Of a DNA stretch of 64,000 nt, positions 8,593 to 64,000 are shown in pieces. The first letter of the stretch is position 1; every line of letters begins with the position of its first letter. The notes below the pieces were generated by a model. It was not told the DNA's origin, did not search any database, and saw nothing but the letters and a program-made list of their open reading frames with translations. The position numbers were made by a program, and so were the translations under genes. Source of the stretch: Geminicoccaceae bacterium (GTDB lineage: Bacteria > Pseudomonadota > Alphaproteobacteria > Geminicoccales > Geminicoccaceae); NCBI GenBank assembly GCA_025999455.1, contig AP024683.1, positions 1,619,501 through 1,683,500 on the forward strand. Direction: 5' to 3'.

Positions 8593-8722
8593 GATCCGCG
8601 GTGGCGACCCGTTCGTCGCGCCCCCCGTCCCGCCCGGGTCCCTCCGTCCGGTTGCGGCACGTGCGCGCGACGGCCGGCGACCGTAGGCCGGCGAGCCCGC
8701 GGGGTCAACGGCTTTCCCCGCC

Positions 8723-9292
8723 CTACTCGGGGGCGGCGAGGTCGAGCCGGCCGGCCAGGAGGTGCGTCGCCGGCAGTGTCTCGAGCCGGGCGGCGGCCGC
8801 CTCGACCTCGGCGGCGAGCGCGTCGAGCCGGGCCTGCGGGGGTGGTCCTTCGGGGAAGAAGGCGCGGGCGAGCAGGGCTTCGAGTTCGGCGCGCGCGCCG
8901 CGGGCGAGCGCCTCGTCGAGGGCCGCGGCCCGGGCCAGGACGCTCGCCGTCATCCGCTTGACCCATTTGCCGACCGAAAGATCGCCCACCCCCATCTCGC
9001 GCAGATTGCGGTCGAGATCGCCCACCATGACCTCGAGCAGGGCCCGGCCGAGGAGCTCGCCCTCCTCGCCGAGTCGGCGCAGCCGGCGGAGCACGAGCGC
9101 GGTCTCGAGGCCGAGCATCTCGAAGCGACCGTCGGGGGTGTCGGGGATGCCCATCGTGGCGTAGGGCCCCGGTCGTCGGGCGCGGGCCACGACCGCGTGG
9201 TAGAGCGTCCGGGCGGTCGCGGCACGGGCCCGCTCGGCCCGCCGTCGGGCGACCCAGCCGCGCAGACCCCCCGCCTGTTCGCTCGTCGGCAT
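8723..9292 (-). CDS. Ubiquinol-cytochrome c chaperone family protein (CBP3-like)
   Basis: This 189-residue protein resembles the bacterial homologues of mitochondrial Cbp3, which helps assemble cytochrome b of the bc1 complex. ARTLYHAVVARARRPGPYATMGIPDTPDGRFEM contains the conserved core (about residues 23-55). It is followed by a helical segment (LVLRRLRRLGEEGELLGRALLE, MVGDLDRNLREMGVGDLSVGKWVKRM). The frame is open to 9541, but homology starts at the ATG at 9292. It precedes DUF177-plsX on the minus strand and diverges from bamE. The annotation rests on motif recognition, and its direct role in this organism is inferred. Confidence 0.82.
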   Translation of the reverse strand: MPTSEQAGGLRGWVARRRAERARAATARTLYHAVVARARRPGPYATMGIPDTPDGRFEMLGLETALVLRRLRRLGEEGELLGRALLEVMVGDLDRNLREMGVGDLSVGKWVKRMTASVLARAAALDEALARGARAELEALLARAFFPEGPPPQARLDALAAEVEAAAARLETLPATHLLAGRLDLAAPE

Positions 9293-9341
9293 CGCTGCTA
9301 GATCCCCTGCCGTGCGCAAGGCTCGCCCGAGGAGGTCCCCC

Positions 9342-9818
9342 ATGTCGCGGTTCGCCCGGCTCGCCGGCGTCCCGGCGCTCGCCCTCGTCGTCCTGGCTGC
9401 GTGCTCACCCACGATCTCCAACCACGGCCACCGTCTCGACACCACCCGGCTCGAGCAGATCCGCCCGGGTGTCACGAGCCGGGAGGAGGTCCGCCGGCTC
9501 TTGGGTTCGCCCTCGACCATGGCGACCCTCGACGACGGCACATGGTATTACGTGGCGCAGCGGACCGAGCGCGCCAACTTCTACAGCGAGCGGCTGGTCG
9601 AGCAGGAGGTGGTGGCGATCCGCTTCGATGCCCGCGGCATCGTCGAGCGGATCGACCGCAACGGTCTCGAATCCGCGCAAGCCGTGGTCCCGGTCGCCGA
9701 CAAGACGCCGACCCGCGGCAACGAGCTCACCCTGCTTGAGCAGGTCGTCTCGAACATCGGCCGGTTCAACACGCCGACCGACCCGCTCACCCGCCGCCAG
9801 GGCCAGCCGCCGTTCTGA
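9342..9818 (+). CDS. bamE: Outer membrane protein assembly factor BamE (SmpA lipoprotein)
   Basis: This 158-residue lipoprotein is a small subunit of the BAM complex that inserts beta-barrels into the outer membrane. The signal peptide ends in a lipobox (VVLAAC, Cys21). The BamE fold follows, with IRPGVTSREEVRRLLGSP and DDGTWYYVAQ. The start at 9342 is favoured over upstream 9312 by GAGGAGG 6 nt upstream and by the position of the signal peptide. The C-terminal tail (TRGNELTLLEQVVSNIGRFN) is typical of alphaproteobacterial BamE. It is divergent from the CBP3-like gene and convergent with hppA. Confidence 0.92.
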   Translation: MSRFARLAGVPALALVVLAACSPTISNHGHRLDTTRLEQIRPGVTSREEVRRLLGSPSTMATLDDGTWYYVAQRTERANFYSERLVEQEVVAIRFDARGIVERIDRNGLESAQAVVPVADKTPTRGNELTLLEQVVSNIGRFNTPTDPLTRRQGQPPF

Positions 9819-9844
9819 GGCTCGAAACGTAGAGCCGAAAGAAG

Positions 9845-9875
9845 AAGGGGGCCGGTCGGCGACCGGCCCCCTTTT
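9845..9875. terminator. Bidirectional Rho-independent terminator
   Basis: A 13-bp perfect stem (9845-9857 pairing with 9861-9873) has a 3-nt loop, GGC, and a G5/C5 core. It is followed by four Ts on the plus strand and preceded by As, so it can act on both strands. It lies between the convergent bamE and hppA stops. Confidence 0.85.
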
Positions 9876-9887
9876 CGCGTCGTGTGA

Positions 9888-12005
<2,118 letters not shown>

Positions 12006-59217: not shown

Positions 59218-59292
59218 TGGGGCGTCGCCAAGCGGTAAGGCAGCGGACTTTGGATCCGCCATCCGGTGGTTCGAATCCACCCGCCCCAGCCA
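59218..59292 (+). tRNA. tRNA-Gln (anticodon TTG)
   Basis: This is a full cloverleaf with acceptor stem TGGGGCG/CGCCCCA, discriminator G and encoded CCA (59290-59292). The anticodon loop CTTTGGA gives TTG, read as Gln. The T-arm contains GGTTCGAATCC. It sits between the SAM-enzyme gene and the dihydropyrimidinase-like gene on the same strand and could be co-transcribed. Confidence 0.96.
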
Positions 59293-59319: not shown

Positions 59320-60783
59320 TTGAGCCCCTTCGATCTCGTGATCCGCGGCGGCACGGTGGTGACCGCGACCGATCTCTACGCCGCCGACATCGGGGTGCGC
59401 GACGGCCGGATCGTGGCGATCGGCGAGGATCTGCCGGCCGGCCGCGAGGAGCTCGACGCCCGCGGCCTGCTCGTCCTGCCGGGCGGGGTCGACAGCCACT
59501 GCCACATCGAGCAGCTCGCCGCCACGGGGCTCGTGAACGCCGACACCTTCGAGACCGCCACGGCCTCGGCGGCGCTCGGCGGGACCACGACGGTGATCCC
59601 CTTCGTGGCGCAGCATGTCGGCACCTCGCTCGCCGCCGTGGCCGAGGACTATCATCGCCGCGCCGAACGCGGCGCGATCGTCGACTACGCCTTCCACCTC
59701 ATCCTCGCCGATCCACGGCCCGAGATCTTGAAGGACGAGCTGCCGCCGCTCGTGCGCGCGGGCCACGCCTCCTTGAAGGTCTTCTTGACCTACGATCGGC
59801 TCGTGATCGACGACGAGCAGCTCCTCGACGTCCTCGAAGCGGCCCGCAGCCACGGCCTCATGGTCTGCGTGCACGCCGAGAACCACGGCATGATCCGCTG
59901 GATGGGCCGCCGGCTCGTCGAGCGCGGCTTCACCCATCCGCGCTTCCACGTGCCCTCGCACCCGCGGATCGGCGAGGTCGAGGCGATCCACCGGGCGATC
60001 GCCTGCGCGGCCTTGCTCGACCAGCCGATCATGATCTTCCACGTCTCGACCGCCGAAGGTGCCGCCACGATCCACCGCGCCCGCGGCGAGGGCCGCAAGG
60101 TCTGGGGCGAGACCTGCACGCAATATCTCACCTTAACCTCGGCCGAGCTCGACCGGCCGGGGATCGAGGGCGCGAAGTGGATTTGCTCACCACCCCTGCG
60201 CGACCCCGCGGACCAGGAGGCGCTCTGGTGGGCGCTCGAGGTCGGGACGCTGCAATGCGTCTCCTCCGACCACGCACCCTACCGGATGGACGCGACCGGC
60301 AAGCTCGCCAAGGGCCCGAACCCGTCCTTCAAGGAGATCGCGAACGGCATGCCCGGCCTCGAGCTCAGGCTGCCGGTCCTGTTCGACGCGATGGTGAGCC
60401 GCGGCCGGTTGGGTCTCAAGAAGTTCGTCGAGCTCACCGCGACCGCACCCGCCGCGATCTACGGCCTGCACCCCAGGAAGGGAACGATCGCGCCCGGTTC
60501 GGATGCCGACCTCGTCCTCTGGGATGCCGAGCGCAAGGTGACGATCGAGGATGCGCCCCGCACCGATCGGGCCGGCTACACGCCTTACGCCGGCCGGACG
60601 GTGAAGGGCTGGCCACGCCACGTGCTGCTGCGCGGCCGGCCGATCGTCCGCGACGGCACGCTTTTGGGCACACCCGGCGAGGGTCGCTTCCTGCCGCGGC
60701 GGGGTGGCTGGGCCGCGGTGCCGACCGGCCGACCGGCCCCGGAGTTCGATCCGGCGCGCAATTTCGGGGCGCGGCTCTGGTGA
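59320..60783 (+). CDS. hydA: Dihydropyrimidinase/hydantoinase-like amidohydrolase
   Basis: This 487-residue amidohydrolase has a TIM barrel with the binuclear-zinc set intact: His60, His62, Lys153 (carboxylated in the family; SLKVFLTY), His185, His241 and Asp317 (SSDHAPY). Dihydropyrimidinases and hydantoinases share this layout and hydrolyse cyclic ureides. TTG start with GGGAGG six bases upstream, after the tRNA. It is the first gene of the coupled catabolic operon, but pyrimidine-catabolism partners (PydA, beta-ureidopropionase) are absent, so the ring substrate is uncertain. Confidence 0.9.
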   Translation: MSPFDLVIRGGTVVTATDLYAADIGVRDGRIVAIGEDLPAGREELDARGLLVLPGGVDSHCHIEQLAATGLVNADTFETATASAALGGTTTVIPFVAQHVGTSLAAVAEDYHRRAERGAIVDYAFHLILADPRPEILKDELPPLVRAGHASLKVFLTYDRLVIDDEQLLDVLEAARSHGLMVCVHAENHGMIRWMGRRLVERGFTHPRFHVPSHPRIGEVEAIHRAIACAALLDQPIMIFHVSTAEGAATIHRARGEGRKVWGETCTQYLTLTSAELDRPGIEGAKWICSPPLRDPADQEALWWALEVGTLQCVSSDHAPYRMDATGKLAKGPNPSFKEIANGMPGLELRLPVLFDAMVSRGRLGLKKFVELTATAPAAIYGLHPRKGTIAPGSDADLVLWDAERKVTIEDAPRTDRAGYTPYAGRTVKGWPRHVLLRGRPIVRDGTLLGTPGEGRFLPRRGGWAAVPTGRPAPEFDPARNFGARLW

Positions 60784-61316
60784 GCGCGGTCGATTGGAGC
60801 GAGGGCGCGCACCGGGCGATCGCCCGGGCCGGCATCCGCCTCCTCGCCCACGTTCCCGATGCCGGGCTTTCGCCCCTGCTCGCCCGCTGCGGTCGCGATC
60901 CCGCGATCCGACTCGTGGGCCTCGCCGACGAGCGCGAGGGCCCGGCGCTCCTGGCCGGCGCCTGGCTCGGCGGGCTCCCGGGCCTCCTCGCTTGCCAGTC
61001 GAGCGGGGTCGGCAACCTCGTCAACATGCTGGGCCTTTCGGCGGTCGGCCGGTTCCCGCTGCCGATCCTCGTCACGATGCGCGGCGAGTGGGGTGAGCAG
61101 AACCCCTGGCAGGTGCCGATGGGCCAGGCCGTGCCCGCGGTTCTCGCGGCGATGGGCGTGCGCCTCTTCTCGCTCGAGCGGGCGGAGGAGGCCGAGGCCG
61201 TGCTCGACGGTGCCCTGGGCCTCGCCTTCGGCTCGGAGCAGATGGTGGCCGTCCTCGTCCGCCAACGGCTCTTGGGTGCCAAGCGCTTCCGCGCCGCCCG
61301 GGCGAGCGTGCCTTGA
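60780..61316 (+). CDS. Thiamine-diphosphate enzyme, alpha (PYR-type) subunit, ComD-like
   Basis: This 178-residue protein resembles the N-terminal PYR domain of sulfopyruvate/phosphonopyruvate decarboxylases (ComD). GLPGLLACQSSGVGNLVNMLGL matches the conserved substrate/PYR contact region. It has no thiamine-binding motif of its own and must pair with the next gene. GTG start and TTGA end overlap its neighbours on both sides. The substrate of the decarboxylase is not visible. Confidence 0.82.
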   Translation: MSAVDWSEGAHRAIARAGIRLLAHVPDAGLSPLLARCGRDPAIRLVGLADEREGPALLAGAWLGGLPGLLACQSSGVGNLVNMLGLSAVGRFPLPILVTMRGEWGEQNPWQVPMGQAVPAVLAAMGVRLFSLERAEEAEAVLDGALGLAFGSEQMVAVLVRQRLLGAKRFRAARASVP

Positions 61317-61903
61317 GCGCGGGGCTCGACCGTCGCGCGCTCGTCGCCGCCCTCGTGGCCCGGCGCGGCTCGGCGCTGCTCCTGGCCGGGCTCGGCTCGC
61401 CGGCTTGGGATCTCGCCGCCGCCGGCGACCATCCGCAGCACGTACATCTCTGGGGCGGCATGGGCGGGGCCTTCGCGATGGGCCTCGGGCTCGCGCTCGC
61501 CCGCCCGGACCGGCGCGTCGTGGTCCTCACGGGTGACGGCGAAGCGCTCATGGGCCTCGCTTCGCTCGCCACGATCGCCGCGCAGAAGGTGCGGAACCTC
61601 GCGCTCCTCGTCCTCGACAACGGCGTCTACGGCGAGACCGGCGGCCAGCCGACCGCGACCTCGGCCGGGGTCGACCTCGCCGGCATCGCGGCCGCCGCGG
61701 GCTTCCCCACAACACGCCGACTCGAGAACCCGGAGCAGGTGCAGGCGACGGTCGATCTCCTGCTCGAAGCCCCGGGCCCGGTCCTGGTCCAGGCCCGGGT
61801 CGAGCATCGCCCCCTGCCGCTCGTCCTGCCGCCCGAGGACGCGGTCACCGAGAAGCGCCGCCTGCGCGCCGCCCTCGGCGTCGGCGAGGCGGGCGCACGA
61901 TGA
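61313..61903 (+). CDS. Thiamine-diphosphate enzyme, beta (PP-type) subunit, ComE-like
   Basis: This 196-residue PP-domain protein carries the thiamine-binding motif GDGEALMGLASLATIAA followed ~25 residues later by LDNGVYGETGGQ, the GDG-x(n)-N pattern, and LWGGMGGAFAMGLGLAL before it. It matches the ComE half of two-subunit decarboxylases and sits directly after the alpha half, with a TTGA overlap, so the two probably form one active decarboxylase. The stop overlaps the next ATG (ATGA). Confidence 0.85.
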   Translation: MSAGLDRRALVAALVARRGSALLLAGLGSPAWDLAAAGDHPQHVHLWGGMGGAFAMGLGLALARPDRRVVVLTGDGEALMGLASLATIAAQKVRNLALLVLDNGVYGETGGQPTATSAGVDLAGIAAAAGFPTTRRLENPEQVQATVDLLLEAPGPVLVQARVEHRPLPLVLPPEDAVTEKRRLRAALGVGEAGAR

Positions 61904-63582
61904 GCGAGGCCGCGCGCCCCGGTTCCCGTTGGCTCGCCGAGGCGCTGGCCGGGGCCGGGGTGAGCCACGTCTTCTTCGTCGACGCCATCCTCCGCCGCAC
62001 GCTCATCGAGCTCGAAACGCTCGGCGTGCGCCGCGTCCTCGCCCATGCCGAGAAGGCCGCCGCCTACATGGCCGACGGCTATGCGCGCGCGGCCGGCCGT
62101 CCGGGCGTCTGCCTCGCCCAGTCGGTGGGGGCCGCCAACCTCGCCGCCGGCCTGCAGGACGCCTTCCTCCACCGGAGCCCGGTGATCGCGCTCACCGGCC
62201 GCAAGCCCGCCGCCTTCCAGTACCGCAACGCCTATCAAGAGATCGACCACGACGGCCCGTTTTCGGCCGTGACCAAGGCCCGCGCCCGGGTCGAGACGCC
62301 CGAGGAGCTGCCGCATCTTTTGCGGCTCGCCTTCCGCGAGGCGTGCGAGGGCACACCACGGCCGGTCCATCTCGACCTGCCCGGGCTGCAGGGCGAGCTC
62401 GTCGAGACCGCGACGATCGCCGAGCCGCCCCGGATCCCGCCGCAACACCGGATGGTGCCGGCCCGCCGACCGCCGCCCGATCCCGACGAGATCGAGGCCG
62501 CCGCCCGCGCGCTCGCCGCCGCCGAACGACCGGTCCTCGTGGCCGGTGCCGGTGCGGTGCTCGCGGGCGCGCATCGAGCCTTGCGTACACTCGCCGAGGC
62601 GGGACCCGTGCCGGTCGCCACTTCGCTCGGCGGTCGGGGGATCCTCCCGACCGACCATCCGCTCCACCTCGGGGTCGTCGGCACCTATTCCGCGCCACCC
62701 GCCAACCGGCTCGTCCACGAGGCCGACCTCGTCCTCTTCGTGGGCTGCCACACGGGCGATCAGCCGACGCAGAACTGGACGGTCCCACCGCGCGACCGAC
62801 CGGTCGTCCAGATCGACGTCGAGGCGCGCGAGCTCGGCCGCTCCTACCCCGCTGCCCTCGGCGTCCTGGCCGATCCGGCCCGTGCCCTCGAAGCGCTCGC
62901 CGCCTCGCTCCGGCCGCGACCCTCCTGGAAAGCCTGGGCCGAGCGGGTGGCCGCCGAGGTCGGGGCGTGGCGGGCGCACATCGCACCGCTCCTCGCTGCC
63001 GACGCCGTGCCGATCCGGGTCGAGCGGCTCTGCGCCGAACTCTCGGCGGTCTTGCCCGAGGAGGCGATCCTGGTCGCCGACACGGGCTATTCCGGGATCT
63101 GGACGGGCACGCTCGTCGAGCTGCCGTCACCCGAGCAGCGTTATCTGCGCGCCGCCGGCTCCTTGGGCTGGGCTTTTCCGGCGGCGATCGGCGCCAAGTG
63201 TGCCGCACCCGATCGGCCGGTCGTCTGCTTCTGCGGCGACGGCGCCTTCTATTATCACCTGGGCGAGCTCGAGACCGCGCGCCGGCTGGGCCTGCCGCTC
63301 GTCGTCGTGGTGAACGACAACTCCGCCTTCGGCCAGGGGCTCGTCAACGTCCACCGCCTCCAAGGCGATCGACCCGGCAACCCGGACGACATCGTCCGCT
63401 TCGGCCCGACCGACTTCGCCGCCGTGGCGCGCGCCTTCGGGGTCGAGGGGATCCGGGTCGAGCGGCCCGAGGCGATCCGCCCGGCGCTCGAGCGGGCCTT
63501 GGCCGCGTCCGGCCCCGTGGTCGTCGACGTCGTGACCGACCCCTGGCCGCGCGCCCCCGAACCTTGGATTCCACCGCCTTGA
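61900..63582 (+). CDS. Thiamine-diphosphate-dependent enzyme (acetolactate synthase-like)
   Basis: This 560-residue full-length ThDP enzyme consists of a PYR domain with catalytic Glu51 in LAHAEKAAAYMADGYARA, a central domain (PVLVAGAGAVLAGAHRALR, DQPTQNWTVPPRDRPVVQIDV), and a PP domain with GDGAFYYHLGELETARRLGL and VVNDNSAFGQ. The overall pattern is that of the acetolactate synthase/benzoylformate decarboxylase group, but the absence of the regulatory subunit gene argues against branched-chain synthesis. Its ATG overlaps the beta-subunit stop. It probably acts in a catabolic lyase/decarboxylase step. Confidence 0.85.
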   Translation: MSEAARPGSRWLAEALAGAGVSHVFFVDAILRRTLIELETLGVRRVLAHAEKAAAYMADGYARAAGRPGVCLAQSVGAANLAAGLQDAFLHRSPVIALTGRKPAAFQYRNAYQEIDHDGPFSAVTKARARVETPEELPHLLRLAFREACEGTPRPVHLDLPGLQGELVETATIAEPPRIPPQHRMVPARRPPPDPDEIEAAARALAAAERPVLVAGAGAVLAGAHRALRTLAEAGPVPVATSLGGRGILPTDHPLHLGVVGTYSAPPANRLVHEADLVLFVGCHTGDQPTQNWTVPPRDRPVVQIDVEARELGRSYPAALGVLADPARALEALAASLRPRPSWKAWAERVAAEVGAWRAHIAPLLAADAVPIRVERLCAELSAVLPEEAILVADTGYSGIWTGTLVELPSPEQRYLRAAGSLGWAFPAAIGAKCAAPDRPVVCFCGDGAFYYHLGELETARRLGLPLVVVVNDNSAFGQGLVNVHRLQGDRPGNPDDIVRFGPTDFAAVARAFGVEGIRVERPEAIRPALERALAASGPVVVDVVTDPWPRAPEPWIPPP

Positions 63583-64000
63583 CCACCTTCGCCGACGTCG
63601 CCGTCCTGGGTGCCGGGACCATGGGCCACGCGCTCGCGCTCGTGCACGCCCTCACGGGCGCGCGGGTTCGGCTCTTCGACGTTCGGCCCGAGGTGGTCGA
63701 CCGCGCCTTCCAGCTGATCGACGCGGCCCTCGCGACGCTTCGCGAGGCCGGCGAGGTCGAGGCCGACGCTGCCGAGGCGGCGCGCGCCCGGATCACGCCC
63801 GCGGCGACCCTCGAGGCCGCCCTCGCCCGTGCCGAGCTCGTCGTCGAGACGGTGGTCGAGGACCCCGAGGTCAAGCGCGCGGTCTTCGAGGCGGTGGCAC
63901 GGGCGGCACCCGCGGGGGCGATCGTCACGTCCAACACCTCCTACCTCGACGTCTTCCCGCTGATGCCGGAGGCGCTCGGGCCCCGGGCGGCGATCGCGCA
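63579..64000 (+). CDS. 3-hydroxyacyl-CoA dehydrogenase, NAD-binding domain (start only)
   Basis: This gene begins at TTG 63579, overlapping the upstream stop (TTGA), and runs out of the window. The N-terminal Rossmann motif VAVLGAGTMGHALAL and LVVETVVEDPEVKRAVFEAV, with IVTSNTSYLDV, match the FadB/HbdA/crystallin-type dehydrogenases. About 140 residues are visible. A final NAD-dependent oxidation of a hydroxyacyl-CoA or hydroxy acid would fit an amidohydrolase-decarboxylase-dehydrogenase route. Confidence 0.85.
   Translation, partial: MTTFADVAVLGAGTMGHALALVHALTGARVRLFDVRPEVVDRAFQLIDAALATLREAGEVEADAAEAARARITPAATLEAALARAELVVETVVEDPEVKRAVFEAVARAAPAGAIVTSNTSYLDVFPLMPEALGPRAAIA

Follow-up and report, generated by a model that had tools for sequence, protein, structure and literature searches.

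Gene string in the Geminicoccaceae window

We analysed a window of 64,000 nucleotides (bases 1619501-1683500 of one contig) from a Geminicoccaceae genome of 3.76 Mb that is assembled as a single contig (G000; G and L numbers are our handles for genomes and loci), at whose downstream end lies a string of catabolic genes joined by short overlaps. A first-pass annotation had described five open reading frames at 59320-64000 with four 4-base overlaps, and these are present as claimed. Together with a sixth gene just past the window edge they form a unit that appears to have been assembled, within one genus, from several catabolic modules of an ordinary kind and that is unlikely to be a single pathway dedicated to some unfamiliar compound.

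The first gene, amh (59320-60783, plus strand, TTG start), is assigned from profiles, the solved match 1nfg and orthologous loci as a D-hydantoinase of the dihydropyrimidinase family (PRK13404 type). It is followed on the same strand by ThN (60780-61316) and ThC (61313-61903), the N-terminal (PYR) and C-terminal (PP) subunits of a split thiamine-diphosphate (ThDP) decarboxylase; by ThL (61900-63582), a full-length three-domain ThDP lyase/carboligase of the acetolactate-synthase superfamily that falls in no named subfamily; and by HAD (63579-64000 in the window, running on to 64535), a dehydrogenase of the 3-hydroxyacyl-CoA dehydrogenase (3HCDH) fold. The four junctions read GTGA, TTGA, ATGA and TTGA. 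The first-pass annotation had proposed looking past position 64000 for transporter, CoA-ligase or regulator genes; there, a gene encoding a short-chain dehydrogenase/reductase (SDR, 64532-65296) joins by a fifth 4-base overlap, and the next is a convergent D-erythronate dehydrogenase gene (DenD). At the other end, a tRNA-Gln(TTG) gene (59218-59292, plus strand, found by ARAGORN) lies directly upstream, 27 bases from its 3' end to the amh start, and sets the 5' limit of the unit.

Nucleotide-binding motifs, ThDP motifs and metal ligands are all intact in the string proteins. Between the window genome and its congeners G307, G308 and G310, dN/dS is 0.09-0.34 across all six genes, resembling that of the neighbouring DenD and IspE, and all six are under purifying selection. 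The six genes are likely co-transcribed in the window genome. A 4-base overlap can be read at the upstream IspE pair as well; such overlap is thus a sign of transcriptional coupling and no proof of a common pathway, and tight overlap in one genome can stem from the joining of modules.

Conservation and break point within the genus

Our sample of the genus comprised six genomes (G000, G307, G308, G310, G233 and G309). Our own gene calls come from a simple finder that uses codon composition only, and their starts are approximate. The full set is present in G000, G307 (on two contigs), G308 and G310. The same gene order, which the first-pass annotation had proposed to seek in other genomes, recurs in congeners, with 4-base overlaps at 5/5 junctions in G308 and 4/5 in G310, but was seen in this genus only. 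G233 and G309 have amh and HAD and no ThN genome-wide at E <= 1e-20; in G233, where 40 bases separate amh from HAD, a genome-wide search at E <= 1e-110 found no ThL either. The genus keeps the order along with upstream housekeeping genes, so the order is weak evidence of common function.

The string breaks at the ThC/ThL boundary, which unrelated genes split in two of the four carriers. In G307 these encode a DarT-type ADP-ribosyltransferase and a NADAR antitoxin on the opposite strand (L042:9054-10973). In G310 they form a cassette (L044:9175-12241) like the one found between amh and HAD in G309 (L101:9301-12308), whose members are a response regulator and a cytochrome b561, both identified by Pfam, and a kinase-like and a small protein, both read from sequence. 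At E <= 1e-40 the other genomes of the genus show no match to the cassette kinase. The four carriers group together (100/100 for the split in a midpoint-rooted five-gene tree and 97/98 in an outgroup-rooted amh tree), and G309 and G310, with the cassette at the same boundary, lie on different branches. The cassette may be ancestral with later loss, or this boundary may have been disrupted repeatedly.

Modules apart in other genomes

In relatives, each of ThL-HAD(-SDR), HAD-SDR, ThN-ThC and the hydantoinase can be found on its own. The G311 locus has genes for a LacI-type regulator, ThL, HAD and SDR in the same direction, with TctC and TctA genes divergent, and no amh, ThN or ThC; G182 has ThL-HAD and G293 has HAD-SDR. 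The G312 locus (L103:1251-11175) has a PuuE-like gene, a GntR regulator, a beta-keto acid cleavage enzyme of the 3,5-dioxohexanoate family (558.2 bits against a cut-off of 430), a branched-chain-type ABC transporter (its genes typed by reading the sequence), HAD and SDR; it is possibly related to the phloroglucinol route. G107 carries HAD beside a choline-dehydrogenase-like GMC gene. Neither ThN, ThC, ThL, HAD nor SDR was seen at 24 amh loci outside the genus (the best-scoring, with one skipped, of 52 listed besides the window genome and G233), and neither amh nor HAD near 46 ThN-ThC loci. The first-pass annotation had taken the genes for steps of one linear pathway, a view against which the separate occurrence of the modules and the foreign genes between ThC and ThL speak; a finding it had named as fatal, separate transcripts with unrelated conservation, is largely what relatives present. 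Forks left open in the HAD, SDR and ThL trees make the age of the ThL-HAD-SDR group uncertain.

The hydrolase and the hydantoinase process

The hydrolase is intact, as first described: HxH at 60/62, K 153, H 185, H 241 and D 317, which we take to be the ligands of a binuclear metal (zinc) centre, are all present. It scores above the cut-offs of both NF009941 (PRK13404; 703.7 bits against 647) and TIGR02033 (552.7 against 393.25), and its best solved match is the D-hydantoinase 1nfg. With the window genome's own proteins as queries, a carbamoylase-type CN hydrolase was found at 17/24 and a hydantoin racemase at 17/24 of the amh loci outside the genus (9-16 kb each), with both at 16/24, as compared to 0/19 for either in control regions, which were 19.5-kb stretches of ThN-bearing genomes. 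A DHDPS-like gene, also at 0/19 controls, is present at 7/24. Given the family and structure matches and this recurrence of racemase and CN hydrolase at orthologous loci, the most likely place of amh is in the hydantoinase process, with its partners unlinked in the window genome.

Clusters of hydantoin racemase, D-hydantoinase and D-carbamoylase genes (hyu clusters) are described in Rhodobacter, Bradyrhizobium and others (PMC3546935). Orthologues of amh lie in such clusters, whereas in the genus studied here the hydantoinase is joined to ThDP and dehydrogenase genes, and neither racemase nor CN hydrolase was found at the six genus amh loci searched. Both partners are nevertheless encoded in the window genome (58% and 55% identical to proteins of the G015 cluster). 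The racemase gene, at 2845 kb (L170:8185-12000), stands beside flavin reductase and DHDPS-like genes, a group that resembles part of the cluster around amh in other Alphaproteobacteria. The CN hydrolase gene, at 1372 kb (L169:3968-8976), overlaps ureD at the head of the urease operon in our own gene call, which suggests that the use of ureide and urea nitrogen is coupled. The statement that the usual partners are absent consequently needs dividing: no partners of pyrimidine, sulfopyruvate or acetolactate pathways occur in the string, as had been noted, but hydantoinase partners do occur elsewhere in the genome.

One locus among the amh orthologues has a ThDP gene of its own: in G226 (L150:6994-11733) a gene for a full-length ThDP enzyme comes directly after the orthologue, within a hydantoin cluster that has racemase and CN hydrolase, and genes for a PuuE-like protein (named by reading the sequence) and a creatininase-family protein are there too.

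The split ThDP decarboxylase

The first-pass description of a split ComDE-like decarboxylase is borne out, in that ThN and ThC are adjacent PYR and PP subunits with solved relatives in RhiEF. The best solved chains for ThN are 9u8q_A/9u8r_A, followed by 9iz3_A, and that for ThC, which also matches PF02775, is 9iz3_B; 9iz3 is RhiEF (PMC12141560). ThN has the catalytic-type Glu and ThC the GDG...N motif. These residues, and their counterparts in ThL, are presumably catalytic, and together with the adjacency of the two subunits they place the pair in the class of two-subunit ThDP decarboxylases of the ComDE/RhiEF kind. Both subunits stay below the cut-offs of the decarboxylase families scored: ThN scores 91.7 bits on the ComD model TIGR03845 (cut-off 147.95) and ThC 124.7 on the ComE model TIGR03846 (cut-off 221.5). 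On the phosphonopyruvate decarboxylase model TIGR03297 they score 54.8 and 114.5, where the cut-off of 312.5 is beyond the reach of one subunit alone because the model describes a single-chain enzyme.

ComDE (sulfopyruvate) and RhiEF (phosphonopyruvate) are the known two-subunit relatives (PMC12141560). They and LumK/LumL, which acts on a quinoxaline carboxylate, resemble ThN-ThC in that adjacent genes encode two subunits, each of about 20 kDa, which carry the Glu and GDG...N; the likeness to LumK/LumL is drawn from its description. The string differs from the ComDE and RhiEF pathways in missing the ComD, ComE and phosphonopyruvate-decarboxylase cut-offs and lacking the pathway neighbours. A 2025 paper on lumichrome catabolism, in which hydrolases open the pyrimidine ring before LumK/LumL decarboxylates the heterocycle, finds LumK insoluble without LumL; it calls two-subunit ThDP decarboxylases rare and names two earlier cases (PMC12746152). 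In contrast to that label, ThN matches at E <= 1e-30 occur in 57/289 sampled class genomes, our own included. At E <= 0.001 the count is 89/289, where the weaker matches include single-chain relatives, and within the family ThN is found at E <= 1e-20 in 9/31 genomes, counting the genus.

Aldehyde dehydrogenase and CoA-activation genes were considered as general partners of ThN-ThC and rejected. Plasmids gave a hint of them: an aldehyde dehydrogenase gene lies in 9 of the 11 regions opened, a selected sample from 35 matching records, and genes for MmgE/PrpD, CaiB, MaoC and CoA-lyase are found there repeatedly. The chromosomal test showed no enrichment (aldehyde dehydrogenase at 3/46 ThN-ThC loci vs 1/19 controls, CaiB at 6/46 vs 1/19, ThL at 1/46 vs 1/19). 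Two tandem ThN-ThC pairs with an adjoining aldehyde dehydrogenase gene were seen in G210 (L047, about 8600-11600).

The full-length ThDP enzyme

ThL has the three Pfam domains (PF02776/PF00205/PF02775), catalytic-type Glu and GDG...N of a full-length ThDP enzyme, in agreement with the first-pass annotation. It shares this architecture with acetolactate synthase, glyoxylate carboligase and cyclohexane-1,2-dione hydrolase, yet it is below cut-off in all 25 NCBIfam matches listed of 54. Scores for acetolactate synthase are 313.8 against 538.35 (TIGR00118) and 356.4 against 673 (PRK06112), and the small regulatory subunit of that group is not among the six genes; for glyoxylate carboligase the score is 246 against 791. 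Glyoxylate carboligase lacks the Glu that ThL keeps.

The gene is rare, being found in 9/289 class genomes at E <= 1e-110, with no match on plasmids at 1e-120. A beta-hydroxy-acid dehydrogenase of varying family adjoins it in the genus and in G311, G182, G286, G075 and G208, and in G217 one lies ~4.5 kb away on the other strand. None was seen at the G114 locus among the ThL loci opened, while the genes around ThL in G102 and G229 were not fully called.

The 3HCDH-fold dehydrogenase

HAD had been annotated as a 3-hydroxyacyl-CoA dehydrogenase. The two-domain fold holds (PF02737, 149.3 bits; PF00725, 55.7 bits), but the CoA dependence probably does not: the protein is below cut-off in all 22 NCBIfam matches listed, and it has neither the His-Glu dyad nor the CoA-contacting Lys and Asn of such enzymes. 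Its catalytic-His segment reads HWYTPPYxxDLVD in 12/12 aligned orthologues (the window's own included, G464 left out), with Asp and Thr at the positions that hold Glu and Asn, respectively, in 5/5 of the solved relatives shown; a distant protein from G286, the thirteenth row of the alignment, has Glu. Set against the 3-hydroxybutyryl-CoA dehydrogenase 9fbd, HAD lacks both KGK lysines and has Gly opposite the Asn of the GMNHPMG loop.

A precedent is CsTfD, the (S)-3-hydroxy-5-oxohexanoate dehydrogenase of phloroglucinol degradation, which carries the annotation of a 3-hydroxyacyl-CoA dehydrogenase and yet uses free 3-hydroxy acids. The CoA-contacting Lys56 and Asn221 are missing from it, and its gene stands with those of an SDR and a beta-keto acid cleavage enzyme (PMC10470551). 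We infer that the positions aligned between HAD and 9fbd correspond to Lys56 and Asn221. Since Asp replaces Glu, the CoA-side lysines and Asn are missing and CsTfD offers a precedent, HAD is probably CoA-independent and acts on a free 3-hydroxy acid, a conclusion in which we have moderate confidence. CsTfD and HAD were compared by description; the HAD of G312 has the same two partners, whereas the window unit has a ThDP enzyme instead of the cleavage enzyme, and HAD has Asp for Glu. Lambda-crystallin, an L-gulonate 3-dehydrogenase, is the second-best solved match and shares PPY and GLG(L/M)R segments with HAD, but at only ~120 bits and without the Asp. HAD is found at E <= 1e-60 in 10/31 family genomes, counting the genus, and 3 times, own included, at 1e-60 in a phylum-wide sample of 398 genomes, with no match on plasmids at 1e-40.

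A composite operon and the alternatives to it

Because the modules separate in relatives, we favour a genus-level composite operon joining three independent catabolic modules, at a probability of about 0.6. The first module would use the D-hydantoinase to open the ring of a 5-substituted hydantoin or a related cyclic ureide, yielding an N-carbamoyl-D-amino acid; the reaction follows from family function, the substrate is a prediction, and the racemase and carbamoylase-type hydrolase of the process would be supplied from elsewhere in the chromosome. In the second, the heteromeric ThN-ThC would decarboxylate a 2-oxo acid, or a heterocycle analogous to one, giving an aldehyde-level product besides CO2. 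One candidate substrate is the 2-oxo acid that remains once the D-amino acid has been deaminated, a chemically natural link to the first module whose only support is that the genes adjoin in a single genus and that in G226 a hydantoinase independently stands beside a full-length ThDP enzyme. In the third, HAD would oxidise a free hydroxy acid, one not bound to CoA, at its 3-hydroxyl, ThL would make or break a C-C bond beside a carbonyl, and SDR would handle the remaining carbonyl or alcohol in a second redox step. We infer these reaction classes, and the CoA independence of HAD, from families and motifs.

Several observations weigh against this composite. The six genes are perfectly overlapped in the window genome and in G308, and the set is kept under selection in four species, as would fit one common function; an old fusion is favoured by the exact ATGA junction that G000 has in common with G308, though G309 and G310 have the cassette at the same boundary. 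The loci read amh-HAD in G233 and amh-cassette-HAD in G309, and no genome-wide search was made for ThL in G309 or for SDR in either genome. As to the modules themselves, CN hydrolase is missing at 7/24 amh loci and racemase at 7/24, flavin reductase (6/24 vs 1/19 controls) is not significant, none of 13 neighbour families is enriched at the 46 ThN-ThC loci against the 19 control regions, and the role proposed for ThN-ThC as an aldehyde-forming decarboxylase draws on family membership and the plasmid sample.

A single dedicated pathway, in which the ureide is opened, the split pair decarboxylates the product (or an imine or heterocycle equivalent) and ThL with HAD and SDR processes the rest, would account for the six overlapped genes in two genomes, has a chemical precedent in the action of LumK/LumL after ring opening (PMC12746152), and finds an echo in G226, one among 14 amh loci with printed calls. 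We consider it rather unlikely, as modules separate freely in relatives, a DarT/NADAR pair or regulator cassette sits mid-string in 2/4 carriers, and two congeners retain amh and HAD without ThN. Quite doubtful, too, is its wider form, in which the six genes and the unlinked racemase and carbamoylase would make up one undescribed route of ring opening, split-pair decarboxylation and skeleton rebuilding or cleavage by ThL, HAD and SDR, with HAD as a CoA-free enzyme of an unusual His-Asp type. If true, it would provide a physiological carbon substrate for these hydantoinases, which the literature describes as having no clear natural function. We found no published description of this gene combination in a search that covered few subscription journals.

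Two alternatives concern individual enzymes. That HAD is after all a true CoA-dependent enzyme of a beta-oxidation-like route, as its 3HCDH Pfam domains well over cut-off and the retained catalytic residues Ser, His and Asn would allow, is unlikely in view of the sub-threshold NCBIfam matches, the Asp for Glu and the lost KGK lysines and loop Asn, the pairing in G312 with a beta-keto acid cleavage enzyme as for the CoA-independent TfD (PMC10470551), and the fact that none of the six genes encodes a CoA ligase or a thiolase. Very unlikely is a role of amh as the dihydropyrimidinase of reductive pyrimidine catabolism with the rest of the operon incidental. TIGR02033 is described as dihydropyrimidinase, and an M20 hydantoinase/carbamoylase-family gene occurs in the window genome; however, it is with racemase and CN hydrolase genes that amh orthologues are clustered, and the M20 gene is at only 1/24 of their loci. 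Moreover, a second dihydropyrimidinase at 58-63 kb of the chromosome, with the omega-aminotransferase AptA nearby, scores better on TIGR02033 (593.5 against 552.7 for amh) and only 415 on PRK13404 (cut-off 647).

On the composite operon we favour, two units without a description that we could find are worth assaying: the His-Asp 3HCDH-type clade, probably CoA-free and paired with a ThDP lyase, and the split ThDP decarboxylase without recurrent neighbours.

Neighbouring genes

Beyond the string, the convergent DenD gene (profile score 414.7 against a cut-off of 325) is followed by an FAD/GcvT demethylase-like gene and a formate-THF-ligase-like gene, the latter named by reading the sequence (65306-70806; L009:8307-13807). 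D-erythronate dehydrogenase and the FAD/GcvT demethylase-like gene adjoin HAD in 6/6 genus genomes, and the latter also occurs near HAD in G300. Sugar-acid catabolism, which DenD and the gluconate-regulator-like LacI protein of G311 might bring to mind, and carnitine-like substrates, for which one could point to the FAD/GcvT demethylase-like gene and the choline-dehydrogenase-like gene of G107, are both conceivable but not supported enough by these neighbours.

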